From Antennarius striatus (Eukaryota > Chordata > Actinopteri > Lophiiformes > Antennariidae): a stretch of DNA of 64,000 nt. The position numbers were made by a program, and so were the translations under genes. The notes beneath the pieces were generated by a model, which searched no databases, was not told the origin of the DNA, and saw only the letters and a program-made list of their open reading frames with translations. Positions 30,636 to 64,000 of this stretch are shown one piece after another; positions within the stretch are counted from its first letter, which is position 1, and every line of letters starts with the position of its first letter. Location of the stretch: assembly GCF_040054535.1 (NCBI RefSeq), contig NC_090783.1, positions 1,020,001 to 1,084,000 of the forward strand, given 5' to 3'.

Positions 30636-32018
30636 ATGGCGGCGACCGGAGAGGGCAAGAAGGACGAGGCGGACTACAAGAGGCTCCACAGCTTCCCCCT
30701 CATCCGGGTGAGACCCGCGGGACCCGGGCTCCTCCACCGGGGGACCCGCGGGACGGGGCTCCGCTGGTTCCCCCGCTGGGTCCCCGTTAGCTCCGGCCTC
30801 CCACTGGAATCATTTCATATATACACCTATAATTTATTATAATTAAAATAATTTATAATTTTATAATTAATATAATTTTATATCTATTGTATTAATAATT
30901 ATTATAATTTTTTTTTAATAAATATAAATTATAATAATTACTCGGCATCCTTCTACCAGTGAATATATGGGTAGAAGGATGTCGAGTATTGTAATTTATA
31001 TTTATTATACCTTTTAATCCTGATGATTCATTAAAGTGAACAAAGTGATGAGGCTGAAACATGAACTGTCAGATGGAACTAATAAATGTAACTAACTCCA
31101 TGTAATGTAAAATAAATAACTAGTCGTTAATGTTAAATAACTCTGAAGTTATTACTTATTCAAGTTACAAACATTACAGATACACAGAAAAAACATAAAT
31201 ATAACATGAATCCTTTTAATCTGTCAGGTTATTAAACCCACAGAACTCCATCAATCAAGGATCAAACTCAGTGAATAAAGAAAAATAACATCAAACACAA
31301 GTTAGGACATTAACTTTGTTCAAAATCTTTTTGTCAAAGTTAAAATGGGCTTAACTACGGCATTGTGGGTAATGTAGTTTTGGTTAAAGCACACTTTTGA
31401 TCTATTTATTTTTAGACACTCTGACCTGTTATGCTCTCATGGGCCACATAAAATGATGTGGAGGGCCACATTTGGCCCCCGGGGCTTCAGTTTGACTGAG
31501 CAACTTTCTTGCTGCTTTTCTTTTGCTGTTTAGTTGATTTTTCCCTGTGGAACGTTAAATATCTGAATTCATGATGATTACTTCACTTTTTTTGCGGCTC
31601 CTTTACGTAGCTTCACGTAGCATGAACCAATTGCGTGCTAACTGGCGTGTTTGTTACCAGCACACGGATATGCCAGAGGAGATGCGGGTGGAGACCATGG
31701 AGCTCTGCGTCACAGCCTGCGAGAAGTTCGCCACCAACAACGAGGTGAGCGTTCGTCACACACGCAGTTCCTTATTGGCTGTTTCCTGTTGACTTGTACG
31801 TATTGGTACGTCTCGGATCGTTCCGTTTGATGCTGGTTCTCCTCGTTCCTCAGAGCGCCGCCAAGATGATCAAGGAGTCGATGGACAAGAAGTTCGGCAG
31901 CTCCTGGCACGTGGTGATCGGAGAAGGCTTCGGCTTCGAGGTCACGCACGAAGTCAAGAACCTGCTCTACATGTTCTTCGGAGGGAGTCTGGCTGTGTGT
32001 GTGTGGAAGTGCTCGTAG
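30636..32018 (+). CDS. dnal4: Dynein axonemal light chain 4
   Basis: This is an LC8-family light chain of axonemal outer-arm dynein. Three exons (30636-30707, 31661-31744, 31854-32018) join to 106 residues, against 105 in human. MAATGEGKKDEADYKRLHSF is followed by the family core MPEEMRVETMELCVTACEKF, then AAKMIKESMDKKFGSSWHVV and GEGFGFEVTHEVKNLLYMFF, and it ends in LAVCVWKCS. Conservation with the human protein is very high and no damage is seen. The start follows an acceptor at 30627 by nine bases. A noncoding exon lies upstream, and a polyadenylation signal is at 32606. Intron 1 carries a long fold-back and a hAT-like remnant. Confidence 0.97.
30916..31007. repeat. Long fold-back palindrome in dnal4 intron 1
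   Basis: The two arms are about 40 bases each. The core CTCGGCATCCTTCTACC pairs with GGTAGAAGGATGTCGAG, extended on both sides by complementary AT-rich sequence, around a loop of about 12 bases. It looks like a small inverted-repeat transposon or its remnant. Confidence 0.75.
31437..31502. mobile_element. hAT-like transposon end (remnant)
   Basis: GGGCCACATAAAATGATGTG, followed by ggccacatttggcccccggg and cttcagtttgactgag, resembles the widespread hAT (Charlie-type) terminus that reads CAAACTCAAGGCCCGGGGGC on the other strand. Recognised from memory of the motif only. Confidence 0.5.
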
Positions 32019-41745: not shown

Positions 41746-42874
41746 ACTATGTTGCTATGGAAACATTCTCAGCTTTGTTTTGCAGTGCAGAAGTCTGGGG
41801 GGACGCAGCTGAAGCTGGTGATGTCATTTCCCGACTACGGACAGGCCTTGTTCAAACCCATGAAGTGAGTCGGACGAGGGGAAAAACATCAAAGACGGAG
41901 CGTTTAGAACAAAATAAGATTAAAAAACGAGACGCGTTCACGTGAGTCCGGTAAATCATGACGCTGGATTGATCATACGGGTTTTTTTTAGTTCTGACGG
42001 TGTCGTGTGCCCCATCAAAGCTTCTGTTTGATGTACCTGTGAAAGGACTTCATGAATTATGAGCTCTAATTTGCCCCCCCCCCGACCCCCGACCCCCCAG
42101 GCAGGAACGAAACCAGGAAACCAGCTACAACCTCTACTACTTCTCCGATTTCGAGCGACACAACGCAGAGATCGCAGCTTTTCACCTGGACAGGTACGGA
42201 AGACGTAAAACAAGTCTTGCGTGAAACCAGATCTTCGACATTATCTTCTTGTTGATGCCCCCCTCCCCTGCAGGATCCTGGGTTACAGGAGAGTCCCCCC
42301 GGTGGTGGGCCGGCTGGTGAACGTGGTCACGGAGATAAAAGACATCACCACGGACCGCAAGCTGGCCCGAACCTTTTTCAACTCCCCCGGTGCCGCCCCC
42401 ACACGCGCCTGAATTATTCATCCAGCCTGCCTAAAATGTCCTTTCATGTCATCTCTCTTGTTTTTGTGGCCTCTCCCCCACCCCTCGCCGCTCCTCTGGC
42501 GCCCCCCAGTGGGCAACGTGTGCTTCTACGGTCAGTGCTCGTACTACTGCTCCACGGAACACGCGGTGTGCGGTAGCCCCGCCCACCTGGAGGCCTCGCT
42601 GGCGCTCATGCTGCCCGACCTGGCCCTCGCCAGCCGGAGGGCGTGGCGATCCCCGTGGAGGCGGTCCTACAGCCGCAGCAAGAAGGCAAAGTCAGTGGGG
42701 TGGGGGATTGGGGGAGGGGGCACCTCCCACAGTGTTTCCCGTGTCCATGAATGTTGTGTTTCAGGTGGGAGTCCGATCCGGACTACTGCTCCGGCGTGAA
42801 GACGACCCCACCCTACAACAAGGGCACCAGGCTAGTGGACCTCATGGACCTGGTGGTCCTGGACTTCCTGATGG
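40024..42874 (+). CDS. FAM20C-type secretory protein kinase, 3' truncated
   Basis: FAM20C is a Golgi kinase that phosphorylates secreted proteins on S-x-E motifs. Seven exons (40024-40478, 40551-40726, 41786-41864, 42101-42193, 42274-42389, 42510-42690, 42765-42874) join in phase to 403 codons. Residues 11-30 ([20 protein letters not shown]) form a signal anchor. [35 protein letters not shown] (with the lysine of FKPMK), [38 protein letters not shown] and [12 protein letters not shown] match FAM20C better than FAM20A or FAM20B. The frame ends in LVVLDFLMG at a good donor. The next family exons, which carry the catalytic DRHHYE and the metal-binding DNGRGFG, are not found before the next gene. 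As it stands the product would lack about 130 C-terminal residues and be inactive. Either the gene is broken by deletion or the exons lie elsewhere. Which teleost fam20c paralogue this is cannot be settled here. Confidence 0.85.
40730..40788. repeat. (CA)n microsatellite
   Basis: About 29 CA units start only three bases after the donor of exon 2 of the fam20c-type gene. Confidence 0.95.
41691..41745. repeat. (TG)n microsatellite
   Basis: About 27 TG units lie 40 bp before exon 3 of the fam20c-type gene. With the CA array at 40730 it flanks the intron with complementary arms. Confidence 0.95.
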
Positions 42875-42930
42875 GTAGGTTCACACTGGAGTCAGGGAGG
42901 GGGTTCAGTCTGCTGCTCAGAACACTAATG

Positions 42931-43745
42931 GTACAGGTAGTCCTCAACTTACGAACATTCAGAGATACGAACAAACGTGTTTCACCATACCCGACTACCC
43001 TACTGCAAAGTTTATCGTAAACTAATCTGGATTAAAACAATCACCTGAATCATGAGCAACGTTTAACGGTAGATATTGGAACTATACGTACGTATTTTAA
43101 CACGATTACGTGTTTTTATTCTGATCTATTGTACAGTAACATGAGATCATGAACTCTGAACGGTTTTCTAGTGATTTCTAGAGTCCAGTATCTGTGGTGG
43201 ACAGACGTTAATCCAGAGAAACGACCTTTATTGTTAAACTGACGGATAATCAGAACGACTGAACTCTGAACGACCTGAACCTGGATTTTATTTATTATGG
43301 GATGTTTTAATGTTCTGGAATTGTCTCTGGTCAGTCTGAGGGAATAGAACTTTAGTATTTAGAGTAGTAATGAGATTACTTTAGTATTTAGAGTAGTAAT
43401 GAGATTACTTTAGTATTTACAGTAGTAATGAGATTACTTTAGTATTTACAGTAGTAATGAGATTACTTTAGTATTTACAGTAGTAATGAGATTACTTTAG
43501 TATTTAGAGTAGTAATGACATTACTTTAGTATTTACAGTAGTAATGACACTACTTTAGTATTTACAGTAGTAATGACATTACTTTAGTATTTACAGTAGT
43601 AATGAGATTACTTTAGTATTTACAGTAGTAATGAGATTACTTTAGTATTTACAGTAGTAATGAGATTACTTTAGTATTTACAGTAGTAATGACATTACTG
43701 TAGTATTTACAGTAGTAATGAGATTACTGTAGTATTTACAGTAGC
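42931..43745 (+). mobile_element. Terminal-inverted-repeat element, copy F, right end missing
   Basis: The left end is ACAGGTAGTCCTCAACTTAC. The segment 43095-43227 is nearly identical to copy C. The element then runs into a 29-bp array and stops inside it. The right part present in copy C (about 120 bp ending GTTGAGGACCACCTG) is absent. Confidence 0.7.
43350..43745. repeat. 29-bp minisatellite, second array
   Basis: About 13-14 units related to the array at 25.0-25.7 kb but diverged: tttagtatttacagtagtaa with gagattac in place of gacattac, so the palindrome is mostly lost. Confidence 0.93.
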
Positions 43746-44728: not shown

Positions 44729-46595
44729 ATGGATCCAGACGACGTTTGCGGCACCAGAACCATGTTTTCCGTCTCTGCGGTCGACGGATCCGACGACGGC
44801 GCTCGTCAGAAATCTGGTAACGAATCAAGACTTAAGAAAGAGTCACGTGACCCTGAAGTGACTCTCCCACCTCTGTGCAAGGCGGCGCTATCTGGCCACG
44901 CCCCCCTGAACGGCCACGCCCCCCTGGACCGACCCACAGAGGCGGTGAAACTCCCTCCTCTGGTCGCGGTGGCGCAGAGGTGCCTGGAATCAATCGGGTT
45001 TTATATCCATCCCAGAATGAATAAATAAATAAGTAACACCTGAACTGGTTGCAGGTGTGTCGGGTCTACGGGGCAAGAAGAACCGCCCCGGGTCAGGTGG
45101 TCTGACGACAAAACGACGACGACGGTGAAGAAAGGGAACACCCCTCTCACCGGCGCCGAGGTGGTTCAGGTGCTCACTGAGAACAGAGCGCCGGGCGGTC
45201 CGGACCTCTACTACCTGAAGGAAGTGGGCGGAGCCTCCTACAGGTAGGCCAGGTGGGTGATTCCGTTCTGCTCGAACGCCCCGCATGAACATCGTGACTC
45301 CTCCCTCCAGACCGTACCACCTGCGAGTCGTCCGTTCCGGCGCCGCCGGGTCGGACCACTACGTCTTCTCCTCCAGGTCGGTTCTACGCGTGACAGGAAG
45401 CGGATTGGACGGACCCGTCGGCCTATCAGAGTGGAGCAGAGAGCGCCTCCTGTGGACGGCGCTGCAGGAGGTGGCGTTCTTCAGGAGCTTCAGACTGAGG
45501 AAGGCGTTCACCAGGTGAGCGCTGGTCTTCTCTCTGAAACATCTCCGCTTCTCAGGGCCGTCACGTTTCATCGCCGCCGTTCTTCTTCTTCTTCTTCTTC
45601 TTCTTCTTCTCCTCCAGGTGGAACAGGAACGTCCGCCGGATGTTGTTCCGTCGCAGGTGTGAGGTTCTTCAGGACGCTCTGCTCACGGCGGTACCTCGGT
45701 TCCAGGATGCTCTTCTTCTGCTCGCCGGGTTAGCTTCAGTTAGCTCCAGTTAGCTTCAGTTAGCTCCAGTTAGCTTCAGTTAGCTTCAGTTAACTTCAGT
45801 TAGCATGCATTGGTTGGTAGACGACCTCCTGGTGACGCTGCGCCTCCTGCAGGACCCTCGAGGAACTGACAGGAACCCCCCGGCTTCCTCTGGAGGCTTC
45901 TGGAACCTTCACGCTGCTGGGGTTCCAGGAGGCGCTGAAGAGGCGGAGTCAGGAGTTCCTGCGGGCGCTGCAGACGTTGTCGCGGCAACGCGCCACCATC
46001 CTGAACGCGGTACGAGCTCGACTTCCTGCCGCGAAGGTTTGGAGCAGCTCATTGGAGAAGGTTCTCTCCCCCCAGGTGAAGGAGGACGGCCATGAAGAGC
46101 GTCAGAACCTCCAGCTGCACAGGCAGTACGCCGCCCGGAGCCGGGGGCCCCTCCACCTCCACCGGGGGCCCCTCCACCTCCACCGGGGGCCCCTCCACCT
46201 CCACCGGGGCCACCAGCGCCACCTGGAGGAGGGTTCGTCCCGCTCCGAGAGCGTCCTGCAGAAGTTGGGTAACTTCGCCGCCCTGGTGGACGAGATGATC
46301 GTCCAGAGTCTCGTCTGGACGCTCCGGAGGGACGTCGACTCGCTGGTCAGCGGCGTCCTGGAGGTGAGGGGGCGTGTCGGGGGTCACGGGGGGCGTGTAG
46401 GGGGTCACGGGGGTCGCTGGAGCGTAAAGATGTTCTTTTCCCAGAGGAGGACCTCTCAGAGCCACGCCCTCTTCCACGCCGAGCTGCGATTCGCCGCCGA
46501 CGGTCAGCTGACCATTGACCCTCCGTTACATCGGTTCCAGGAAGTGATGAGTGAAGCTCTGCTAGCTGTTAGCGACTTGCTAATCCAGGTAATCT

Positions 46596-46651
<56 letters not shown>

Positions 46652-49600
46652 ATAAATCCCACCTTCCCCCCCCCTCCAGATGTGTGACACCTGTGGGTTG
46701 TTCCTGGAGACCAGCAGCTCTGATTTGACCTCTGACCCCCCCAGCGGGTCATCGGGTGTCGTCGAGAACGAGAACCTGAACGCCGTCCGTCACGAAAAGT
46801 TCTGCTGCTGGAAGTTCCGGAGGGGGGCGTCGTCTTCCTGCCCGGCGCCGCCCGACACGGCCTCCTCGCTGATGGTGCGGGGCAACAGGGCCCGCGTCTC
46901 CTATTACCCCCTCTCCAGGGGGTATCTGGAGCGACAGGTGAGCGTCGGTGACGTTACGCGTGTGGCGGAGCGGCTGGGCGGCGTGATGCGGGAGGCTGAG
47001 GAGGAAGTCCAGCGGCTCTACCGGAGCTACTCGTGGCTAACGGACGTTAGCGTCTTCATCGACCAATGGCGCGACGGCGCTGCGGAATCCATGACGGGTC
47101 AGCCGGCCTCGCTGTACGAGGAGCGCGTGAAGACGCTACGCCGCTGGACGGAACGAGTCAACGCCCTTCCCTCATTGGTCTGCACCTCCGATCGGCTCTT
47201 CATCATCGACGTCACCGCCGTGAAGGAACGTCTGAGTACGTTAACACGTGGTAAAGAACGAGATGCGGTCTCACTGATGTCGTATCCATCCGCCAACACG
47301 TGGTAAAGAACGAGATGCGGTCTCACTGATGTATCCATCCACCAACACGTGGTAGAGAACGAGATGCGGTGTCACTGATGTATCCATCCACCAACACGCG
47401 GTAAAGAACGAGATGCGGTCTCACTGATGTATCCATCCACCAACACGTGGTAAAGAACGAGATGCGGTCTCACTGATGTATCCATCCACCAACACGTGGT
47501 AGAGAACTAGATGCAGTCTCACTGATGTATCCATCCACCAACACGTGGTAGAGAACTAGATGCAGTCTCACTGATGTATCCATCCACCAACACGTGGTAA
47601 AGAACGAGATGCGGTCACAAGCATGACTCATATCTCAAATCGTAGCTCGTGTCTGGAGGTTCTACTTCACATACGTGTGTAAAGACGTGTAAGCAGTAAG
47701 CGTGTCCTGAACTGATGTTGGATCTTTTGCTGTTTGTTCTTCAAGGTCGGCAGCTGAAGGTCATGGAGCAGGAAGTGCTGGAACTACTTGTCTCGCAGAT
47801 AAAGCTGCGGTCTGAAGGCGTGGCGTTGGACCTGGAGGAGGTTTCTGCCCAGCTGGAGGCAGAACCGCGAGACTTACGTGATCTCTCCACGTACGCCCTG
47901 ACGGTACGCCGAATATTTAAACTTTACACGTTTGCACGAAAACTAAAGAATACAAAAGGGAAAAATTGAAAGAGAAACTGAAACGGCTCCCGCTGAAGCG
48001 CCTGAAGGGTAAAGACAGGATCTCTAATACCCCGGCGCTCCCCGTTTTACCTCTAGATCCTCGGTGGCTGCTTTTAGTCACACGGTGGCTTTAATTATTC
48101 ATCCCTGGGCTCTGGTGATGTGCTCTCAATTCAAATCCCATCATCCCCAAACCATCAGGTGACGCATCGCACATCAGCGAGGGGGGGCACGAGCGTGGAA
48201 GGAACCCTTTAAAAATCCATTTTCACGTCAGAGACGGTTCATTATGTGCTCATTTATGATCTGTTAATGTTTCAGGAGTTAATCATCATCACTTGTTTCC
48301 ATGGTTTCTGATCCCTAAAGCATCCAGGAGGTCGTTTGGCGTCGGGTCCTCGGTGACTTCAGGGTCAGTTACTGAGATGTGTGCAAAAAGATGTACATAA
48401 GTTGAAATTTGACCTTGACCTAGTTTCTCAAGGTCAAGGTCTTCATCTCATCTTCATCCCCTCTCCTGCCTGAGTCGTGTTCTTTTTGTTTCGTCTTTCT
48501 ATCTGCAACGGTTGTGGAGACACTTGGATGGATGGACAGACGGAGACACGGACACCGACATTCACAATACGTTAGCGACGTTAGCATTGTGACGCCGATC
48601 CGCTTCCTGTCCTCAGGTGAGGCGGTCGGGGGAAACGCTGGCGGACGTGCTGAAGCGTCGGGACTACATTCGCTCCCTGCAGGACGCCGTCGGCTCGCAT
48701 TACAGGAGGATGACTGAGGAGGAGGCGACGCTAGAAGGAAAGGTCAGCGCCCCCCAAACGACTCCATTTGGCCCCCCCGTTATCGTTTTATGACTCGTTG
48801 TCACAGGTTACGCCCCAACATTACAGCAGCTTAATTACATCTGAGTTTTATATTTTATCTGCCCTCGCCGTGAGATGATGGCAGGAAGTGGTCGTCAATC
48901 AAACGGCGTCTGTCTTGAGTGCAGCTAGAAGTTCTGACTTCAACAAACTGTCCATGCATGTAATTCTGTACGGTATGTTCTCTGCGTGTTCTTACGTAGG
49001 GGCTGCAGGCGTGGGCTCGTTTTATTCACCTCTTATCGCCGGCCGACGGGGTCGTGTGCCGCCGTCTGCCGGCGGCGTCGAACGCCTTGGACACAATGTC
49101 GTCCTTCTTGGCAGCAGCGGTTAAAGACGTAGTTGCTAAAGCTACGTCTGGAGCCGCCCTGGACCCGACCCAGAATCCACAGGAGATGGTCTCCGCCCTC
49201 ACCTACACCTGTGCGCACCTGCAGAGCCTCAAGGCAAAGCTGGATCAGCTGAGCGTCAACAGACAAAACCTACAAGGTCTCTTAGCAACTCGTACAACTT
49301 GATAAATGCAGAAGGTTGTGGCGGGAAGGGCATCCAACATAAAAAACTTTGCTAAACAAATAGGAGTTTATCTAAAATAAGAAAAAGGATGAGGTGCCGT
49401 GGCGACGCCCAACGGGACAAGAAGGAAGGACGTTTTATGACAACAGAAAGAAATGTTTCTGATGCCATAGCACCTGTAATTTGTGTTATTATACAGTCAA
49501 AGACAGGCTAATATTGATCTTGATTTCCTCTCGCCAGAGCGTCCGGTGGATCCGACCGTTTTGACAACAGATGTTCAGAAAGTGGAGGCCCGTAAGGAGC

Positions 49601-52600
49601 TGTGGGAGCTGATAGCCGAGTTCACGGAGTGGTTAGAAGAACGGAAACAACTCGTTTGTAGTGAGGTAATGTGTCAAATCGAGCGTTCTCTGCTTCTTCA
49701 TGAGATAATGAAACACGGCTAATGGCTAATTCGTTTGCACTCACGGCGATGATGAATCGATTTAGCTAAAATCTACTTGACCTTGACTTACGACAACATT
49801 TCATCTCAAAATCTATTTGTTAGACATGCATCTTTTGAAATGTCTCTCCATCAGGATGTGATGTCACAAGCTCAAGAGAAAATTACCAAGTGGAAAGCCC
49901 GAGCTGTGTCGCTAACAGATGTTCTTCCGACCCATGATGCTGTGCTGCAAGAGACTTTAACAAAGCTGGAACGTTTAAATGATCGGCTTGCCGTCATGAA
50001 CGAGCTCCGACATCCGGCGCTAGAACAAAAACACTTGAAAGTTATTTTTGAAGGTCAGACTCTGCACGGTTTGTTCTAATGTGTGGTTATGAGCAGAGCA
50101 CTAAAAATATGGAAATACATTCCATCTGGCAGGAACGGGCGTACAGATTGACCCTGAAAAGAAGTTGACTTTCGCTGAATTGATGCTTCAACAAGTTGAA
50201 ATTGACAATAAACTTGTTTCCAAGGTGAGCGCTGGAGACGCGTTGTGAAAACAAGCTGAACAGACGTTAAAAATCAACTTATTTTCCTGCTTGTACTCGT
50301 TACTCTATCAGATATGCAGGGATGCGCAAGCGGAGAGTATGGTGAAGCAGACATTTCACAAACTTCGACAGGGATGGGAGGCCAGAAGCTTCCGTCTGGA
50401 TGAATTCCGTGTCGGGCAGCAACACGAGTCCACAGAGGACAAGGCTTCACATCGCCAAACTGCCGGTCAACCGTCGTGCTTCACCATAACTGGTGAAACT
50501 GGATAGGAAACAAACGAATGTTTCACATGACATCATCGTGTTGTCGTCACTCTGTCTCTCGGGCGAAATGTAATCGTTTTGCATTTTGTGGCTCAGATCT
50601 GGACGTTCACCTTACCGAGGTAGAGAACGACTTAATGGCTCTGTCCACCGTGTTGAAGTCACCACACAGTGTTGACGCCAGGCTGGAAATGGAGGACTGG
50701 GTGCAGTCACTACAAGAACTTGGTAAGGTGAACATCTGGGGAAAAATATACAAGAATACAAGAAACTTCCATCAAACGCAGAAAGACAATGAATGCTGTG
50801 TCGTTTTTTACAGGGAACCTGCTCTGTTTGTTTGAAAGATACCAGCAATCCTGGACCTTCTTGACCAAGATGTTCAACCAAAACTGTAGTATTCCCACAT
50901 GTTTGGTATGTGCCAAAGCGATTAAAGTGGTTTAGTCCAGCACTTTGCTTCAGATTGACATCAGATTCTCTTTCAGCAGGAGCAGTTCCAACCGGTTGAT
51001 GAGACATTTAAGAAAATAATGTCCTCCGTAACAAATGACCCCTGTGTGCTGAACTTTGTTCGCTCCACAAACACAAATGACGGATTCCATGGCGACGGCC
51101 TGTGCCAGCTTCTCACTGTTGGTCTCTTTACAATGGATAGTATTTCCAACCAGATGCTGGATCTCCTGGATACCCTCTGTGAGGAGTTCCCAAGACTGTA
51201 CTTCTTGAGTTATAGGGAAGTGATTGAACTACTCTCCTTTTACGCGACTCCTTCCACGCTGCTTCCCTTTGTACGAAAATGTTTCATTGGGGTACGTTGG
51301 TTCAAAGTGGACGGTGAGGTTCCATGTAATGAACCAGATGTAAAGACTGGTCAAACTCATGGCCAGACGAGGGTACTGGGGGTGTTCGGCAGCCTTCAAG
51401 AACGCATCACCTTTCCGTCACCCTTAGAACCAGATTGCAGTGCCTTGGTTTGGCTTTGTGTCTTCGAGAAGCAATTAAAACTGACCATGAAACAGCTGGT
51501 GAGCCAATGTGCGGTTGTGGGAAACCAGCTCGGAAAACTCAGTCAGGATTTGGTTTGCGATAAGAAACTTAGAGAAACCCTGTGTCAAGTTCCTAATTGG
51601 AGAGAAGCAGCACAGCCTATGTTGGATCTGGTGTCTGAATATCCTCTCCAGAGTCTGCTGGTGGCCGAAGAAGCAGTTTGGTGCAAAGTTGTTCTCCACG
51701 CTTCCCGGGAAACAAATGCGACAAAGTTCAGCGACGTTAAAGCCCACAATACTGACAAACTGACAAACATCTGTCGCGTCATTCGAGACGGGGTCTCAGT
51801 ATCTAAGTATACGATGATGTGTCTTTGTGCTTTTGTGCAGCTTACAATTAATCACGAACGACAGCTATCTCGACTCTCAGAGGTAGGATCTGTTCCTATG
51901 GAGTTTTCTTTTGAGTGGATGAGTTTGATGAAATATCACATACACGTAGAGGACTGCAGTCTGAAAGGTGATACTGATCCAACATGTTATGTGGACGTTC
52001 TGGGCCATCGATTCAAATACGATTATGAGTATTTTGGGCCACGAGGATGGGAGATGGTTCATACTCCGGTCACAGATCAGGCAGTAATGGGGGTTCTCTT
52101 CGCTCTCAGAAGCTACAGGTGTGGGTTTGTGAGTGGGTCCCTTATGTCCGGGAAGAAAACCACCGTGGTTCAGTTAGGTAGGGCCCTGGGGCGACAGGTC
52201 GTCACTGTTCAATGTTCTCCAACCATGACAGCCAGTGTTGTTCAGCGGATGCTCTTGGGAGCCCTGCAGACCGGAGCCTGGCTCGTACTGGACTCTGTGG
52301 ACCTCCTGACACAAGGGGTTCTGTCATTCCTTGGACATCATTTGGAACACATTCACCAATACTTCTCTGACTTCTCGAGAAAAACAAGTCAAAGATTGAA
52401 CGAGAATCCAAAAGACACAACTGCTGAAAGTCTCCATCCTGCTTCTCCTATAGTTCTTGAAGGAAAAAGTATTTCTGCCAGGCAAAGCTATGGGTGTGTC
52501 GTCCTTTCATCAAAGAGCTACTCATCTGAGATTCCAATGAGTCTGCAATGTGCAACCAGACCTGTTGCATTGACCCGTCCAGACTACAGTATAATTGCAG

Positions 52601-55600
52601 AGGTGATGCTGACTTCCATTGGTTTCTCAGAGGCACCATCCTTAAGCCGGAATCTAGTGACCTTCTTTGACCTTGCCAAAGATATGTGCTGTCTTCCGGA
52701 GTTCCTCTCTGATGACCAGAGTTGCTATCTTGTTGTCTTGCAAAAGATCATCTCCGCCTCTCAAATACACTTACAAGAAAATATTAGGCAAAGGGAAAAG
52801 TCGAAACAGGCTGAAGGTGCTGCTGCTGATCGCAGCGATCTTCCATTTTCACGAAATTTGCAAAAGAGAATCACTGAAAAGGATGGAAAAGAAACTGCAG
52901 AGCAGTCGGCATTTCACAATTCTCATTTGTCAGTCGTGAGGGGGTTGATGGAGGAGACAGCTATTGTGAAAGCAGTTCTATCTGTCTTTATGCCGGTTCT
53001 TTATGAGCCCAAGAAAGTCTCAGAGTTCGACAGAATTGTCAAGGAAACATTCCTGATAGCCTGTCAGCTTCCTGTTTTTCAACAATCCATCGAGGAAGAA
53101 GAAAAGAACAAACTTACAGAGGCTGTTTCAGAAGAACTACAAAGAAAAGGGCTTCACGCTGACAAAAAAGTCCTTAGCAGTGCTCTCACGCTCTACCAGA
53201 CGATGAAAGGCTCTCAGGCAGTTATACTTGTTGGCCCGACAGGAAGTGGAAAGTCAACCTGTTACCGTGCTCTAGCCGGGGCCCTGAATGGTTTGGCTGC
53301 CGAAGGGTTTGAGAAAGGCAATACGACAGAAGGAGAATGTCCACAGGTGGATCCACACATGTCTGATTCAACCTGGAACTCTGTTGAGACCGTGGTCGTG
53401 TTTCCAAATGCCATGACCCATGAAGAATCGTTCGGCTACTTCTGTGAAAAGAGAGGATGGCGAGATGGAGCTGTTACAAAGGTGCTGAGAGATTCAGGAC
53501 GACGTGAACAAACTCGTTCAACAATCTGTGACGGTTCTGAGACTATTCAGCGATCCATCGTCAAATGGCTGGTAATGGATGGAGAACCAGTGGGGCAACC
53601 AAGCTGGTTAGATTACTTTAGCACCCTTTGTGGACTTGAGGACCCGTTCCTATGCCTGTCGTCAGGTGAAAAACTTCCATCACAATCCCAGTTTAAGTTA
53701 CTAATGGAGATGACTGACCTTTGTGAGGCTAGTCCCTCGGCGGTGACCCGTTGCAGCCTTGTTCATTTCTCAGGGTCTGACCTGTGGAAAGCAGTGTGGA
53801 AGAGTCAAGTCCTCGCTCTCTCTTCTGACCACCAACTGAATCAAGGAACCTTGAAAATGTGGAAATGCCTGGCAGAAGATCTGTTCTCCAGCACTCTGAG
53901 TTTGATCAAGCAACATGTTTTAACCTCCGCTATCCACAGTGGAGACTCCGTCGGTGGGTCCGTGTATGGACTGCAGGAAGTCCTGTCATGTGCTCGGATC
54001 CTACATGCCCTCCTGCAGCATTTTGGGAAGGAAGTGGAGAAAGCTGGGACTATATCACAAATAGACCAAAGAGGTACAAACATGAACCTTTACAAACACA
54101 GAGACTAGTGAGGTCATGGTTTATGTATGTCAGTAGTGCTTTCTCGCCTCTCCTCCCACCAGGTTCACCTTCAAACCGAAGAGACTCTCAGACTAGACAA
54201 GAGCTGCTGGTCAGGAACCTTTTCCTGGTGGCATATATTTGGGGATTTAGTGGACACCTCCATCCTCGGTAAGATAATCATTACCAAAATAAGTTGTTTC
54301 ATACCATTTCTCGTAATATATTTTGTTTTCTCTACAGCCACTGGCCACAATTTAGCGTACTAGCCCGCCAGGTGTTGTTTGCTTGCCGGTACAAAATTGT
54401 GGTCCCGGATGATCAGAGTGTGTTTGAGTACTTTTTCAACAAAGACATCAGGATTAACCCCAAGACCACACCGTTAACAACTTCTGTCACACCCAAGGTT
54501 TGTCCTGAATATTGATTCTGCTGTCATGAAGCCACTTATATGTAGAGATTCCATGATAAATAGAAAGTTTTTTAAATTTCTTTGTGTAGTACAGGTACTA
54601 CACCTACCTCCTGAACCTCATGTTGGAGGTCAACCAGCCCGTGCTTCTTGCAGGAGAACCCGCCTCTGGAAAAACTTCTCTGTGCAAAAGTTTGCTGAGT
54701 TTCGACAAGCCACATATCGTCCTCCCAGGAAGTCAACTCCTGGGTTCCAGAGACCTGCGCCAGATACTGAATAGCATTAGCTTCCGCAAGAACTGTGAAG
54801 GTAAAGTGGCATCCAATCGAAAACGGCCAAGACTACTTCTTTTTGTGGACGACTTGCATGAAGCCCCCAATGGTGAGTCAGGAGACTTATGCAGAAACAA
54901 CATGAATTTTTCGTCCAGTGTTGAAGCTTCTTGTGACTTCCTGTTTATAGATGTCTACGGAAAGACGTCAGTTGCCCTTGAGACACTACGACAGACTATT
55001 TCTACTGGAGAGATCCTAACGTTTGATACCTACCAATTCAAAATACTAACATCCAGAACCATCAAATACTTGGCTTCCTGCTCTGTCCTTGGACCAGGAA
55101 GTCCCTGCAGTAGTTCGCTATCCTCCAGGCTCTTGCGACTGTTTTCCATCTTTGTGCTTCCTAGCTTATCTCTGGACGTTATTTTGTCCATCCATTCTCC
55201 TCAAATGAAAATGTGGGTCGAAGAGCTGCACCTTGAGCAGAACATCGAGGACGTGGTTTGTTCTATAATCACCGGAACTAAACGTCTGTATGATGCAGTA
55301 CAGAGCCAGTTCCAGCCGACGGAGCAGAAGCCCCATTCCATATTTTCCCATCATGATATTCAGAAGGTGTTTTGGGGTATGTACCTGTGGAGACCTAAAC
55401 CCCCAAATTATGGAACGATGCAAGAAATGGAGACCTTGCTAACTCACTATCCTGCAGCATCATTTGCTAACATCGTGCACCTCTGGATGCACGAGTGTTT
55501 GCGGACGTTCGGCGATAGATTATCCTCAGGGGTCGAGAGCAGGGCTCTTGTGTCTCTCATATCCAACACAGCAACGACTCACTATGGAACCAGATTGGTT

Positions 55601-58600
55601 GATGAACTCCAACCCGTCCGTGTTGAGGACCCACCCCTCGTCTACGGTCCGGACGCCTCTGAGATCCTCTCATCAATGAATCAACAACATCCTGGAGGTG
55701 ATTTTTCTTATCGGCCCCAAAGTCTTGATTCCCTCCTGGAGGCGCTGCGTACGCTCATGGACAGGAAACAGGAAGACGACAAAGGTCCTAACGGAAACAG
55801 CTTGATGACCGGATGTGTGCTGCACCGACAAAGGCTAAATCAGCTGTTACGTGTCCTCAGGGCGTTGGCCATACCAGGAGGTCATGGCGTGCTGATTGGC
55901 TCGGACAAGGGCACAGGCCGTAAGACCACAGTGCGTTTAGCGGCGTACGCAACAGGCTACCAGTTGATGGAGGTGCATCCTGAGAATGAAAATGAGTTGC
56001 ATGAAATCCTGAAGGAGGCCGGGAATCGGGTGAGAGCAGATGGGGTTCACGTCATCGTACTGGTCCATGAAGGGATCAGCCGACCTGTCAGAGAGGAAGT
56101 CTTGGTGGCAATGGCTCGAGGAAAATACCCAGGATTCCACACGGACGAGGAGCTGAGGAAGCTGGTTTCCAGAGTGACAGATGAGAAGGCCTCCAGAAGA
56201 TACCGAATGGACACCTGGATGTTTGAGAAGTAAGAGGGTGTGGTTTAATTCATCCGTTAGACCTCTGGTGGTCTTCACAAACCGGATTTGAAGTAGAATT
56301 CTGAAGTGCGAGTTTGTTACCATCACAAACTATTTGGTTCTGTTCCCTTCAACAAAGGTACTTGAACCAAACCCACAGAAAAGTTCACGTGTTCCTGTTG
56401 TTTCCCCTCAACATGTCGGACAGCGTTGGGGTACCCGCCGGCGAGTTGTCCCACGGATTGATGGTAAGTAAACAATGACTTCAAATTAAAACACGCAAAT
56501 GTCAGAAATACCCTGAGGTGCAACGGAACCCAGATGGACGTGTTTCCTCCAGGCCCAGCTGATCAAAGCCCTGAGCTCCAGCTGTTGCGTGGAGGTTTAC
56601 CAGCCCTGGTCCAACCGCTCCTTAGCAGAAGTCGCTGCTCAGTGCCTCAAATTTGGTCCCAACAAGCGTAAGTCTTCCTTAAACTTCTTCGTGTCGGTCT
56701 TACCGGGTTCTAACGCAACATGTTTTCCCTTTCCCTCAGCGGACAGTGGATCTGCCATCAGCCTGTCGGCGGCGATGGTGGGGATCCATCAATCTTCTTG
56801 TCGATACGCTTCCGTCCTCCTGAGAGATCGTCCTTTCGATCCTCAGACTTACATGGCGTTCGTTGCAAACTTTGAATATTTCTGCAGCCATCTGGACCGG
56901 GAACGACGGAGCAGAACCAACAGGTGATTCCTCAACCAGCAGTCAGGATACTCTAGAAAACGTACCTGATTCTCCCGTGTGTCTCCAGACTCTCCTCTGT
57001 CGTAGCTCGCTTGGACGCCATGAACGACGCGGCCGCGAAGCACAAAGAGCATCTGATCCGGCTGCGGGAGACGGTCGCTGCGACCCAGCAGGTAACACGG
57101 AACAGTCCAGCATTGTGAGCGCAGATCGATAATGAAGCTGCAGCGGCATCGACCGCCGCGCTTTAAAAAAAAAAAAATCCAAATAAGTTGATTTGCAAGT
57201 AATAAACCCAGTGCAGGTGGAGGAGTCTGGTGTTCACCAATCGAATTCCAGCTACGCAAGACTTCCAAGAATCCATACTTGAATTAATTTCTAAAGAAAA
57301 CATGAATATCCCCCTGCAGACTCAGTTCAGCTCTGGTTACCGTAGAACGCATTGGCTTTTTGATGCTTTCATGAATCTCTGAGCTCCTCTTCATCCTGCA
57401 GAGCGAGGAAGACCTCCTTCGTGTCGTGAGCGTCCAGACGAAGCTGCTGGACGAGGCTAACCAGACGTTAGCGGCGACGGAGGAGAAGCTGCATCAGCTG
57501 GAGGAGCAGATAGATGGCGCCGAGGAGCAGGTGAACGGATTCCGATGCGTTACAGATCACGTGATCGGTCATGTGACACGCAGACATTATTTGAACAGGA
57601 TGTCGTTATCTCTTCCAGCTCAGACCTTTTTTCGCCTCGGGCCTCGAGCTTCTGAACTGTCTGGACCCGTCGGACCTGGAGGAAGTCCGTCGGTACAGGG
57701 ATCCACCGGAGGGCGTGGTCAAAGTCATGGACGCCGTTTGTTTGCTGTTCAACCGTCCGCCGGGATGGGAAAGTGCCAAACAGCTGATCGGACAATCTGA
57801 TTTCTTCCAGGTGTTCATTTATTTTTTATTTTAAAGCTACGCTTGTGCTAACGTCATGCTAACGGTCGGGCGTCTATAGGAGCTGGAATTCTTTGACCGC
57901 TTCACGCGGACGAACGAGGAACTGGAGCAGCTCGGCCGGATCGTCGGCAGCCCGCCGTTTGCGCGGCGTTCCGTGTCGGATGCCAGTCGGGCTTGCGAGT
58001 CTCTGTTGCGGTGGGTCCGGGTGACGTACGAGCGCTGCTGCCTGCAGCGCCACCTGCAGGTCAAGAAACAGCTGGAGGCGCTGGCCGGGGATGCACAGCG
58101 TCGGTTGCGCCTGGCCCGGCGGCGCCAGGGGGAGGCGCGCCGCCGTCTGGAGGAGGCGCAGCAGAAGCTTCTGCTGGCGCAACGAAAACGGAAGGAGCAG
58201 GAGGCGGAGCTATGGGCGGCGGAGAGGACGGAAACAGGCGCCGCCGCCTTGATTGGACGGTTGGAGATGCACGATCAAGACTGGCGGACCGCAGCTCAGG
58301 TAACCCGTCGCCGGTAAACGTCATCATTATTTGTTTTTATGTTTGCTTCAATCATGATTACTCTCCCCTCAGGAGGCGGAGCTATCTGTACGAGCGTCGG
58401 CGGGCGACGCCCTCATCCTGGCTGCCATCGTGTCCTATGCAGGCCCGTTTGGACCAGACGTGCGCAAAGAACTGCTGAGCAAATGGCGTTCGCTCTGTCA
58501 GACAGGAAGCATCGACAAGAAGCCCGAGGACCCCCGCGCCTCCCTGCTGGGGCCCCCTGACGCCACGCCCCCTGATCCTCTGCCGGGGTTCCCCATCCCG

Positions 58601-61600
58601 GTGTCTGAGGGGCTGCAGGAGCCCCTGAGTCAGGTGTTATATCTGCCCCTGGACGCCCCCCTGGGGCAGATGGTGGTGAAGCTGCTGCTGTTGGGCTGCA
58701 GGAGGGCGTGGCTTCAGCGCCCCCTGTTGTTAGCAGACACCGATCGACACGCAGACAGAAACGCAGGTACGACCGGCGTCTGGTGTCACCTGACCGGACA
58801 GGTGAACCTCAGGTCACGTCGTTACAGATTCGACGTCGGGTTTCCCAAAAAAATACTCAGAAAAATAAAAAATGCAAGTTGTCGTTATTTTAGTGCGCTT
58901 GTTTTTCGACTTACATCACGTATCCTGGAACCCATTAACAACGTTAGCCAGTTTCACCTGCATTTCCTGCCAGGTAAATGAGGAGAGCATCAAGCCCAAA
59001 AAACTGTTGTTAATATAAATCACTTTTTCCTGAATTTGAAAACCATGAATTTTAAATTGTGGTAAAAAGAAGTTGAAGCCAGTTTAATCGGCGTCTTCTC
59101 TGCAGACGAGACGTCCGGGCTGGAGAAAGAGGTGGATTGTGGGACGGTGGTTCGCGCCGACGACCCGGAGCTGCTGGACAAGCTGGACCAGGCTGCAGAG
59201 GAAGGTCTGCAGATAACACAAAACTAGTCTGAACTCGGATTTCATGAGTCCAGCTTAACTGAGTTCAAGATAAACTCGAGCTTTTTCGTTCCTCAGGTTT
59301 GAAAGTTCTCGTAACTCACGCGGAACGTTTGAGGCCCCGCCCACAGCTTGTGTCCCGCCTTCAGGGGTTAAAAGAAGACGTTCGGCCGCCCCACCCGGAG
59401 TTCCGTCTCCTCCTCAGCAGCCATCTGCCCGTCCAGCTGCTTCTGAACGGTAGGAAAGATCTGTGGAGTCGACACAGCGTTTCTGTTCAAGACGCTTAGT
59501 CAGCACTTTCCTCGGAACAGGAGTACGTTTAAATTAATTTGTCATCCCGGTCCGATAATCGTACACAAGTTTGTCTGGATGCCTAGATAGAGTCAGGAGG
59601 CGGTGATAACTTCACAGAACGCCACGGAAACGAGGGATGTGTAGCAGGAAACAGACCGTAGAAATGACCTCTGACCTTCATTAGTTCTCGCCTTTGTGCT
59701 CCAGAACTGCACCCGTCCATCCTGGCCCGGGTCCACGTGGTGGACCTGTGTTTGGGCTCGGAGGAGCTGCAGGAGCTGCTGCTGACGCGGCTGATGCAGC
59801 CGGCGTGTGGAAACCTGCTGAGTCGGCGCCAGCAGCTCCAGGAGGACAAACGGACGCTGGAGGAGAAGCTGATGGCGGAGGAGGTGACAGGGCGGGGCCA
59901 GACGGGCGAGGCGGGATCAATGTCAGCTTCAGCGTCTGATCAACCTGATCAGACAACAGCAGCGCTGTTATAAATGCATTTATTCATGAATGCATTTTTA
60001 TAATATTTGGTTAATATGAATCTATTTTAAGATGACAAAATTAGATTTTATTTTTTAATATAGCACAGAAAAGACGTCTCCGTCTCGTCTTCAGATGCTT
60101 TTCCTCATTGTGGGTCACGGGGGTTGCTGCAGGCTAATAATATGATATTATATGTTTTAATTTGATTTTTAGTACAGTAACTTGATATTACGAACTTTTA
60201 ACGGTTTACTAGTATTTTTTTTCCATGTTTTTATGTGAAAACTGACTTGAAATGACGTAACTCGAAACAACATAACTCGAAATTTCGTAACTTGAAAAGA
60301 TGTAACTTGAAATGACATCCCGGTAAGTCCAAATGATGTAACTTGAAAAAACATAACTCAAAATGACGTAAGTCGAAATGATGTTACTCAAAATGACGTA
60401 GGTCATGAAACACGTAACGAGATGACGTAATTCGAAAATGACATAACTCGAAACATAACTCAAAACAACGTAACTCGAAAACAACATAACTCGAAATGAT
60501 GTAACTTGAAACGGTGTAACTCAAAATGACGTAACTCAAAATGATGTAACTCAAAATGACGTAACTCGAAACAACGTAATGAGACAAAGTAATTCGAAAA
60601 TGACGCAACTCAAAACGTAACTCAAAACAACATAACTCGAAATGACGTAACTTTTAAAGACGTAACCTGAAATGACATAACTCAAAACGATGTTACTCAA
60701 AACGACGTAACTCAAAATGATGTAACTCGAAACGATGTAACTCTGAAGTGACGTAACTCGAAACAACATAACGAGATGATGTAATTTTAAATGACGTAAC
60801 TCGAAACGATGTAACTCAGAACGATGTACCTTTGGGTCTATCAGCGTGTCTGTAGATAATCAAGCTGTTGTTTTGGGCGGTTGTGAAACCGTTCCCGTCT
60901 CTTGTAGGACGCTCTGATGGCCGACATCCTGCAGTCGGACTCCTCCCTGCTGCAGGACTCGGGTTTCCTCCCCCGTGTGGCTTTGTGTCAAGAGGCAACC
61001 ACTGAGCTGCGTTCTGAGATCGGGCAGCTGAGTGAGGAGCTGCAGTACCACGAGTCCCTGCTGGCGGCGCCCCGACAGCTGGCGGCGCTGGCCGCCGCAC
61101 TCTACCGCGTCCTGCAGCAGGTGTCCCGTCTTCCCCCGGCCGGCTACTTCTCCCTCTCCGGTTTCATCACCGTCATGCAGGACGCCTTTGTCGTGAAGGG
61201 AAGGCCGTTGTTGTCATGTGACTACGGGCCGGTGCCAGGGGGCGTGGTTTCAGAGGTCACCAACCAGATGGTGACCCGGCTGCTGACCCAGTACCGACCT
61301 TGTCTGATCCAGAGTCACTTCTCGGTTCTGAAGTTGCTAGCATCCGTGGCTCTGCTGGAACACAACCAGCTCTGCTCCCAGGCCGAGAAGATGGTTCTCC
61401 TGGGGGGCCTCCAGGATCTAGAGGACCCCTGCCTCGCCCCTCCCACCACCCCGGCTCTGCCCGATTGGGTACTGCCTCATCTCCACACGGATCTTCTCCG
61501 CCTAGACAGGATCCCCGCCTTCAGCGGTTTAATCGCCTCTCTCTCCACGTCGCCCCTCCAGTGGCGGGAGTACCTGCGCTACCCTTCCTCGACTGTAGCG

Positions 61601-64000
61601 GGGGCCATTCCTTGCCCCTCCCACGCCCATTTGTCCCTGATTCAGCGGGCTGTCCTTTGGAAGACCATGATCCCCGACTGCACGGACAGGTTGGCCGACG
61701 ACATGGCCGTCTACTGCCCCTTACTGCCTGGAATACCGGAGGAGAGCGACGCCCCTCATGCCGGAAACCTGGAAGCCTTCTCGCAATATCTCAGCAACCA
61801 CGGGGGGCCCGTCATCCTTACCTGGCCCCGGCCCAGAGGAGGCACGGGGACGAGCATCCAGCCCCTTCACCTGATACACGAACTGGCCAAGGCGGCGATG
61901 ATACCAGTGGAAGTCGTGTCTCTGGGGGTCCTCAGAGACGACCGGGTTGTTCTGTCCACCCTGGGTGACGCCACCGCCGCCGGCCACTGGTTGGTTCTAA
62001 ACGACTGCCACCTGCTGGAACACTGGAGCGACGGGGTGTTGGCTCGCTTCGGGGATTTGATCGACTCCCTTCATCTCCCGGGGCGACAATGCACGATCCA
62101 CGCCTGCTTCCGCCTGTGGTTTGTAACCCGAGACGACGCCCCCTGCTGCATACCAGGTAGAGCGACGCACGACGACTTCCTGCAACCAGATTGTAGAACT
62201 AAACGTTCCTTCCGGCGGGTTTTCGTTCTCCAACAGGGGCGGTGAGGATGTGGGCGGTCCCTCTGGTCTGCGACGCCCCCTGGGACCTGAAGGAGGAGTT
62301 GGGCTACTCCCTGAGACAGGCTACATCCTTCACACGGCGCCGGGCGCTGTCAAAGGAGAACGCGGAGCTCCTCCACCGCTGCGCCATCTTCCACTCGGTG
62401 CTGCTGCAGAGACGGCTCTACGGACGCCCGGGGGGGACCTGCAGCTGGTGAGGAGATAGACCTACTGACCTGGTTTGACCACCTGCAACGGGTCTGAACG
62501 GTTCTGCCGGTGTGTCCTCCCCCAGGACCCAACAGGACCTGTCGTGTCTGATGGAGGATCACGTTTGGATCTCAGGTCTCTGCCAGGATGGAGCCAAGGC
62601 ATTGCGGTTTCTAGCGGGTGAGGTGTCGGAAGTGATCGGAATCGATCAGAACCAAGTAGAACGAGGTAGAACTGTTTAGAACCGACTAAAACCGGGTAGA
62701 ACTGACTAGAACTGGTTAGAAAAGACTTGAACTGGGTAGAACTGACTAGAACTGGGTAGAACCGAGTACAACCAACCAGAAACGACCACAACAGGGTAGA
62801 ACCATTTAGAACCGGGTAGAACAGACTAGAACCAGGTAGAACCTGGTAGAATCGGGTCCGCCCGCCATCACCTCAGGATTTAACCTCGTTATACTTTTCA
62901 TCCACAGCCCAACTCGTCCACGGGGGTCATGTTCTGGATTCTCCAGGTCTGGAGGAGGTGGAGGGCGTCGCCGCGATCTGTTTCGGCAGAGCTCCGCCCC
63001 TTAGTAGTGTTGTCAACCCGTCCGGTAACTGGGTCTCCTCTCCGCCCGTCCCGTGTGATTGAAACCCGTCGACCACGCCTGTGTTTCCTCCCAGATCTGC
63101 TGGAACAACTTCAGGACCTGGAGGGGCGTCTTCGGGATCCTGGAACCATCGACGACCCTCTGGCGTTGGGATTCGGCGCCGACGTGGCGGCCGAGACGAT
63201 CCGAATCAAGAGCCGCCGTCTGAACTTCTTGCTTCGGGCCTCGCAGACCCCTCAAGGTTCACCCGGTATTGACTCCGCCCACCTGAAGTCGCTCGCCGAT
63301 CCATCGTCCTGCGGCGAAGTCAGCACTAGGCTGCGGATTCTGAAGACTCGCCTGGAACGCAGGAGCGACAGCGCCGATACCGATGGCGTTCCTGGGAGCG
63401 CCGTCCATCACTTCCTCCTGACTGAGTGGGACGACCTGATGGTTTCAGTGTCGACGCTCCTCGCTCAGCTTCACCACCGGGTGCCGCCCTTCGCCTCCCA
63501 CCTCCGACTAGTTTCCTGGTTGGAGAGGAGGGCGGAGCTGCTGAGCGCCTACCTCTGGCGCCGCAGCGCTTCGGATCCACCCGGCGCCTACCGGCTAGCT
63601 GCTTTCAGGAACGCTAGAGGTTTCCTGGCGGCGGTGAGGCGAGAGGCTGCAAAATGTAATCGCACCTGCGTTGGCGACGTAGCGCTGCACCTCCAGGTAA
63701 TGCCCATAAAATATGGCGTCGTACGGAAACCGTTTGCTAATCACGAATTGTTCTTCTACCTCCAGGTCGTGGGCGAAGGCGTGGCCGACCTTCCCCCCAA
63801 CGGTGTGTATCTGTGCGGTCTGAAGCTCAGAGGTGCATCATGGGATGTGCAACACAGGGCCTTACAGGAAGTGACTTCACCACACCCGTGTCCGCTGCCC
63901 CTCGTTTCCATCCAAGCTAACGTCAGGAGTGCTAACGTCAAGAGCGCTAACGTCGGACGGGACTCCGCCTCCCCTCCTCTGGTCACTCCACAGTTACCCC
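44729..64000 (+). CDS. Axonemal dynein heavy chain, DNAH6/DNAH14 branch, AAA1 degenerate
   Basis: Heavy chains are the motor subunits of ciliary dynein arms. About 38 exons, nearly all in phase, give about 4,300 codons. The start (44729) is tentative and the 3' end lies just outside. Tail: exons 45055-50905 (DLYYLKEVGGASYR; WSRERLLW; FIDQWRDGAAESM). Linker: start of exon 50980-54073 (FPRLYFLSYREVIELL). AAA1 (52.0-52.7 kb): loop GSLMSGKKTT, Walker B VLDSVD, sensor I VVLSSKSY, all lacking catalytic residues. AAA2 (53.2 kb): GPTGSGKSTCYR, intact. AAA3 (54.65 kb): GEPASGKTS and LLLFVDDL, intact. AAA4 (55.9 kb): GSDKGTGRKTT, irregular. Stalk and microtubule-binding domain: 56989-58299 with coiled coils on both sides. 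AAA5: 58373-59204. AAA6: 60908-62156 (GHWLVLNDCHLLEHW). C-terminal domain: 62237 to the edge (FRNARGFLAAVRREAAKC; GVYLCGLKLRGASWD). It is very divergent from other heavy chains, so DNAH14-like is likelier than DNAH6, but this is unproven. Confidence 0.88.
45729..45805. repeat. 10-bp minisatellite (ttagcttcag)
   Basis: About eight units of ttagcttcag/ttagctccag start at the donor of dynein exon 4 (45618-45728). This makes the splice site GG-GTTAGC itself part of the repeat phase. Confidence 0.85.
46136..46208 (+). repeat. In-frame 21-bp coding repeat in a dynein exon
   Basis: Three and a half copies of the codons for RGPLHLH lie in exon 46076-46363. Each is 21 bp, so the reading frame is kept. 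They lie in the tail region, which tolerates length change. Confidence 0.85.
46598..46651. repeat. (CA)n microsatellite in a dynein intron
   Basis: About 26 CA units between the exons ending at 46588 and starting at 46680. Confidence 0.95.
47243..47615. repeat. 49-bp minisatellite in a dynein intron
   Basis: About 7-8 units contain cacgtggtaaagaacgagat and gcggtctcactgatgtatcc. The array begins directly after the donor at 47236. The unit matches the inside of the transposon-like element at 39.2 kb. Confidence 0.9.
49310..49445. mobile_element. Short teleost repeat tail in a dynein intron
   Basis: gttgtggcgggaagggcatc, followed by taaaaaactttgc and later gatgaggtgccgtggcgacg, is a familiar fish interspersed-repeat tail. 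It lies between dynein exons 11 and 12, whose phases do not match. Confidence 0.5.
50980..54073 (+). other. 3.1-kb single dynein exon (linker to AAA2)
   Basis: This uninterrupted coding exon of about 1,030 codons spans the linker, AAA1 and AAA2. In most vertebrate axonemal heavy chains this stretch is split into many exons of 100-250 bp. The exons just before it are of normal small size. Base composition is less GC-rich than the exons at 45-47 and 57-64 kb. Confidence 0.85.
60228..60835. repeat. Minisatellite with TGACGTAA units in a dynein intron
   Basis: About 35-40 imperfect 15-16-bp units of the type aactcgaaatgacgt. Many contain TGACGTAA, a CRE-like octamer. It lies between dynein exons 59705-59883 and 60908-62156. 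Confidence 0.9.
62632..62868. repeat. 10-bp minisatellite (tagaactggg)
   Basis: About 22 imperfect units of tagaactggg / tagaaccgac lie in a dynein intron near the C-terminal exons. Confidence 0.88.

Follow-up and report, generated by a model that had tools for sequence, protein, structure and literature searches.

In the 64,000-nucleotide stretch of Antennarius striatus DNA analysed here (contig NC_090783.1; hereafter the window), we identified a dynein heavy chain gene in which the Mg-binding, catalytic and sensor positions of AAA1 have all been replaced. Our main reading, to which we assign a probability of roughly 0.77, is that the product of this DNHD1-like gene is a "pseudo-motor", a long heavy chain under constraint that would act as a non-motor scaffold for the assembly of cilia and flagella. 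The predicted features of the gene are listed below in window coordinates.

44729..50727, + strand: N-terminal exons (tail and start of linker), 14 modelled exons with approximate boundaries, from the codon-usage and splice-site model only
50980..54073, + strand: large exon, 3094 bp and 1031 codons, with the linker end (DHC_N2), AAA1 and AAA2, from Pfam and PDB alignments
52135..52164, + strand: AAA1 Walker A, GSLMSGKKTT, in frame 0, with Lys at the Mg-binding Thr/Ser position
52285..52302, + strand: AAA1 Walker B, VLDSVD, with Ser (TCT) at the catalytic Glu position
52498..52566, + strand: AAA1 sensor I, VVLSSKSY, with Ser at the Asn position and two residues missing, followed by the kept RP arginine (TRP)
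53083..53802, + strand: AAA2 with an intact P-loop (GPTGSGKST) and a conserved SPSAVTRC motif, limits taken from PDB matches
54595..56229, + strand: AAA3 and first half of AAA4, two exons, from Pfam and PDB alignments
56358..57091, + strand: four exons, two placed by eye, with the second half of AAA4 and the beginning of the stalk base, from sequence and splice sites
57402..58299, + strand: stalk, with coiled coil 1 at 57402-57530, the microtubule-binding domain at 57619-57810 plus the start of the next exon, and coiled coil 2 within 57880-58299
58373..62156, + strand: AAA5 and AAA6 region, with uncertain exon boundaries from 58755 to 60907
62237..64000, + strand: C-terminal region, Dynein_C in the last exon (Pfam, 4.5e-13)

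Codon-usage and splice-site models placed the gene on the + strand, starting near 44.7 kb and reaching the window edge at 64 kb; a model of this interval patched by homology comprises 34 exons, with 4300 codons free of stops. Because codon usage was trained on the gene's own long frames, the openness of these 4300 codons is partly built in, and the drift argument given below is restricted to the single 1031-codon exon. All 33 introns of the patched model are GT-AG, a rule imposed by the method. Automatic models contained 45, 42, 33 or 30 exons according to the intron penalty; the figure of about 38 exons in the preliminary description was thus of the right order. The automatic models missed the microtubule-binding exon (57619-57810) and mis-cut the exons preceding it, and both were set by eye using homology and splice sites. 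The start of the gene is uncertain. Pieces from three of the 14 N-terminal exons were scanned against Pfam, and these gave no family above cut-off and no N-terminal tail domain. The last exon reaches position 64000 and the stop codon lies beyond the window edge. The protein is at least 4300 aa long (the N-terminus being modelled only and the C-terminus beyond the edge), against 4753 aa for DNHD1.

Several repeats were observed in the modelled gene. A perfect 21-bp tandem repeat of 3.3 copies (46141-46209) is in frame in a predicted coding exon, where it gives seven-residue HLHRGPL repeats. A minisatellite at 47243-47616 (49-bp unit, 7.6 copies, 95% matches) falls nearly entirely within the modelled intron after 47250, and a degenerate 15/30-bp tandem array at 60245-60817 occupies much of the modelled 1024-bp intron preceding the exon at 60908.

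The domain order is that of a dynein heavy chain: linker end, AAA1 to AAA4, stalk, AAA5/6 and C-terminal domain, with AAA5/6 weak. DHC_N2, AAA_6, AAA_7, AAA_8, MT and Dynein_C exceeded their Pfam cut-offs; AAA_9 and D6 stayed below theirs, and the region they cover was matched by PDB dyneins. As judged from the sequence, a gene that is open and collinear with dynein heavy chains is supported.

The AAA1 motifs lie within a stop-to-stop frame of 1049 codons (50959-54108), which contains all three of them together with DHC_N2 (1e-20) and the AAA1 module AAA_6 (6.6e-44), and along which PDB dyneins align with E-values down to 3.8e-45. The 3094-bp exon modelled in this frame has a weak right-hand splice site (score 2.6). 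It also includes a 117-bp stretch (52817-52933) that is unaligned to dyneins, and the models leave room for an intron splitting the exon there. Our first gene model interrupted the AAA1-AAA2 frame with four introns, of which one (51968-52075) covered residues aligned to other dyneins; stronger intron penalties dropped that intron first and then all four. The exon with AAA1 is the largest of all in the patched model (50980-54073) and keeps that rank in a looser model that splits it (51428-52816). It loses this rank in the loosest model, where a segment that aligns to other dyneins is cut as well. AAA1 is not known to lie within the largest exon in other dynein genes. In human DNHD1, the AAA1-site residue Gly1997 is encoded in exon 21, its largest exon (PMC9916431).

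AAA1 is the obligatory ATPase in the dyneins studied. The preliminary description had read GSLMSGKKTT, VLDSVD and VVLSSKSY at this site, with a retained TRP arginine downstream, and had concluded that AAA1 is catalytically dead. All three motifs are present at 52135-52521 in frame 0 of the + strand, and the arginine is retained in the alignment to five PDB dyneins, two of which are nearly identical in this region. Against these five, with Walker A and Walker B ungapped, GPAGTGKT has become GSLMSGKK and DEFNR has become DSVDL, and in sensor I TMNPGYAGR has become LSSKSYS, two residues short. Lysine in Walker A and aspartate in Walker B are kept, as is the RP arginine. An active motor carries GKT/S in Walker A, DE in Walker B and Asn in the sensor, and here the corresponding residues are GKK, DS and Ser. 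With the Mg-ligand, catalytic Glu and sensor Asn positions all changed, the sequence agrees with the earlier conclusion, and ATP hydrolysis by AAA1 appears very unlikely. The three motifs kept only 5 of 22 invariant columns, whereas the remainder of the compared stretches kept 36 of 68 (P-value = 0.015, Fisher test, which is indicative, as motif columns were chosen by hand, gaps were counted as lost and invariance was taken from five dyneins including the nearly identical pair). An AlphaFold2 prediction of AAA1 alone from the single sequence had a mean pLDDT of 38 and was left out of the interpretation.

The other nucleotide sites show a mixed pattern. The loops of AAA2 and AAA3 had been described as good, and in alignments to PDB dyneins both GPTGSGKST in AAA2 and GEPASGKTS in AAA3 are intact, as is the AAA3 Walker B (LLLFVDD). 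Pfam matches over 54595..56229 were AAA_7 (5.9e-11), DYN_lid (1.9e-7) and AAA_8 (4.2e-12). In AAA4 the P-loop is degenerate (GSDKGTGRKTT, one residue extra) and the Walker B Asp is unrecognisable in PDB alignments; over 56358..57091, AAA_8 scored 15.2 bits, under the cut-off of 25.6. The 78-bp intron between the AAA3 exons (54873-54950) is open and in frame, and its retention would insert 26 residues downstream of the AAA3 Walker B.

The microtubule-binding stalk is recognisable. It contains the MT domain (1.4e-13, 51 bits), its microtubule-binding domain aligns gap-free to DNAH6, and its best PDB matches are three DNAH6 sequences (72-73 bits, E = 1.9e-19). Scored against 8glv_Fm, AAA1 reached 86 bits here and 385 bits for the canonical 9e5c_6c, while the stalk reached 60 and 108 bits, ratios that are approximate given query lengths of 360 and 320 residues for AAA1 and 183 and 151 for the stalk. 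Identity in AAA1 columns is 34-37% here against 61-73% between canonical pairs, and in the stalk 28-35% against 44-55%. The relative loss is therefore greater in AAA1 by bits as well as by identity, and the wider bit-score gap of AAA1 partly reflects its higher baseline conservation. Of 37 stalk positions that are invariant in three canonical dyneins, 19 are retained here, a share close to the 36 of 68 of the non-motif part of AAA1, so only the catalytic motifs are clearly singled out.

Beyond the stalk, similarity is lower. AAA_9 scored 16 bits in the AAA5/6 region (cut-off 27.4) and Dynein_heavy D6 30.1 bits, slightly under its cut-off of 30.5, and a PDB dynein aligns across 398 residues of the region (E = 7.6e-14). 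Phmmer against PDB over the C-terminal region returned nothing better than E = 0.1.

The gene had been described as an axonemal dynein, with DNAH6 and DNAH14 named for comparison, and an axonemal dynein of that kind was not supported. The protein is distant from PDB dyneins in every part compared, and the best PDB match across AAA1, among the matches listed, reached 96 bits. Lists of the best 60 matches include DNAH1, 2, 3, 5, 6, 7, 9, 10, 12 and 17 and cytoplasmic dyneins 1 and 2, all of them weak; DNAH8, DNAH11 and DNAH14 are not named in these lists. DNAH6 scored 73-77 bits against AAA1, while a canonical protist dynein scores about 360 against DNAH6, and the orthologue of a vertebrate motor heavy chain should be far closer than this. 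DNAH6 was rejected as too divergent; DNAH14 was set aside by general divergence only, its sequence lying outside the comparison. With DNAH6 and the single-headed inner-arm dyneins the protein has the domain order in common, and its stalk is closest to DNAH6 (73 bits), but AAA1 is canonical in those motors, whereas this protein has altered loops in both AAA1 and AAA4 and resembles them little overall. The heavy chains of cytoplasmic dyneins 1 and 2 also have the same domain order, and their entries scored 83-85 bits in AAA1 (59-76 bits for the lower-eukaryote cytoplasmic entries listed); however, they are active AAA1 ATPases, and the protein here is without the catalytic residues. With the AAA1-AAA2 protein as query, one scan each of viral_contigs and genome_contigs yielded no relative: tblastn bore out none of the 7 and 51 pattern matches.

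The pattern fits the orphan DNHD1. Most likely, the gene is a very diverged DNHD1, set apart from the motors listed in PDB by its sequence and likened to DNHD1 by description, and hence a known orphan dynein and not a new axonemal type. The likeness consists in being dynein-derived, in probably standing outside the motor set and in having the AAA1-site residue in the largest exon, and DNHD1 has been tied to cilia and sperm flagella (PMC9916431, PMC9749982, PMC8754002). It has been described as a dynein-related orphan, termed a "ghost gene", which may be turning into a pseudogene (PMC8754002).

In the surroundings of the gene, Pfam families above cut-off were found in five of the ten neighbour pieces scanned (patatin, CBX C-terminus, pentraxin, dynein light chain and FAM20C). 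The corresponding exons are those of a patatin-like phospholipase (9093-9362, - strand), a CBX C-terminal region (16164-17297), a pentraxin (25913-26191), a dynein light chain (31749-32018; Dynein_light, 3.4e-20) and a FAM20C-like kinase (42413-43020, upstream of the heavy-chain gene; Fam20C, 9e-25 at 42413-42796). The light chain exon precedes the heavy-chain gene by about 13 kb, is on the same strand and presumably belongs to a DNAL4-like gene; the FAM20C-like exons past 42796 (to 43020) are likewise presumed from resemblance. We take these neighbours to resemble the human 22q13 gene set and not 11p15.4, so synteny gives the DNHD1 identity no support. Human DNHD1 is placed at 11p15.4 (PMC9916431).

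Other explanations of the altered AAA1 were weighed against a retained pseudo-motor. That the gene is not DNHD1 but a dead, lineage-specific paralogue derived from a DNAH6 or DNAH14 motor heavy chain seems unlikely: the three DNAH6 sequences heading the PDB matches of the stalk (72-73 bits) and the gap-free alignment of the microtubule-binding domain speak for it, but a recent vertebrate paralogue should score far closer to DNAH6 in AAA1 than 73-77 bits when a distant protist dynein reaches about 360. Decay would make this DNHD1 a pseudogene, either recent or slowly dying, with the AAA1 changes as early signs; it would agree with the "ghost gene" label and possible incipient pseudogene status given in passages on DNHD1 (PMC8754002) and with a very divergent protein, most of all in AAA5/6 and the C-terminus. 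However, the 1031-codon exon has zero stops. Its expected stop gain is about 127 per neutral substitution per site, so that, ignoring indels, the absence of stops has P < 0.05 past about 0.024 neutral substitutions per site. Divergence from the dyneins compared is far greater than 0.024, and most of it should therefore have arisen under constraint; a very recent release from selection would still be compatible with these figures. The dynein domains are also collinear, the stalk is recognisable, and the AAA1 losses are clustered in the motifs (5/22 kept against 36/68), which together make decay distinctly unlikely. The preliminary description, too, had held that this is not a decaying pseudogene, and the stop-free exon and the clustered losses speak for this view.

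A protein that still moves, either with AAA1 alive through non-canonical residues or with another site such as AAA3 now the main ATPase, would make sense of the kept Walker A Lys, Walker B Asp, RP arginine and AAA2 SPSAVTRC arginine and of the intact Walker A and B of AAA3. We consider it very improbable, since what textbooks give as the obligatory ATPase is altered at the Mg ligand, the catalytic Glu and the sensor Asn alike. An assembly or base-calling error would require that codons known from a single sequence copy be wrong. TCT stands at the Glu position, where all three bases differ from GAA/GAG, and TCA at the sensor Asn position, where all three differ from AAC/AAT, so a base miscall is not credible there; the Walker A Thr position has AAA, at least one change away. 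Several codons of a single open frame would each have to be wrong at more than one base, between flanking residues that are conserved, which makes such an error extremely improbable. The best reading is thus a non-motor heavy chain, as had been suggested at the outset, given the lost catalytic residues in what the sequence presents as an open, collinear gene.

For such a pseudo-motor, the AAA1 site would be unable to run the linker-swinging ATP cycle, and the protein would not walk. AAA2 and AAA3 may bind nucleotide, either keeping the ring folded or providing slow regulation, and the stalk would contact the microtubule. The heavy chain may then serve as a scaffold or regulatory tether while cilia and sperm flagella assemble. 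In zebrafish dnhd1 morphants, the cilia of Kupffer's vesicle are reduced in number (19 +/- 9 versus 62 +/- 9) and in length (3.03 versus 4.83 um), and ciliary motion is reported to be unimpaired (PMC9749982). Malformed sperm flagella accompany human DNHD1 variants (PMC9916431), and the same phenotype is attributed to Dnhd1-knockout male mice in a review (PMC12558365). An assembly or scaffold role would suit a heavy chain in which the stalk and the accessory nucleotide sites are retained and the engine is lost.

The source passages term the AAA1 site of human DNHD1 hydrolytic and contain no statement that it is dead (PMC9916431). Among the papers listed in a search with most subscription literature outside it, no title or beginning of an abstract claims a dead AAA1 in DNHD1 or another dynein. 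An open gene, losses in the AAA1 motifs and a recognisable stalk point to a retained pseudo-motor, as against the decaying "ghost" view of DNHD1, and a dead AAA1 would also matter for the interpretation of patient variants at this so-called hydrolytic site. More tentatively, and with somewhat less than even odds in our judgement, DNHD1 may be a conserved vertebrate pseudo-dynein in which the main ATPase is off, the stalk and the AAA2 and AAA3 sites are under selection, and the protein acts as an ATP-insensitive or slow-switching microtubule tether that templates the axoneme. If so, this would answer the "ghost gene" puzzle of DNHD1, and human AAA1 missense variants would act otherwise than by blocking hydrolysis.
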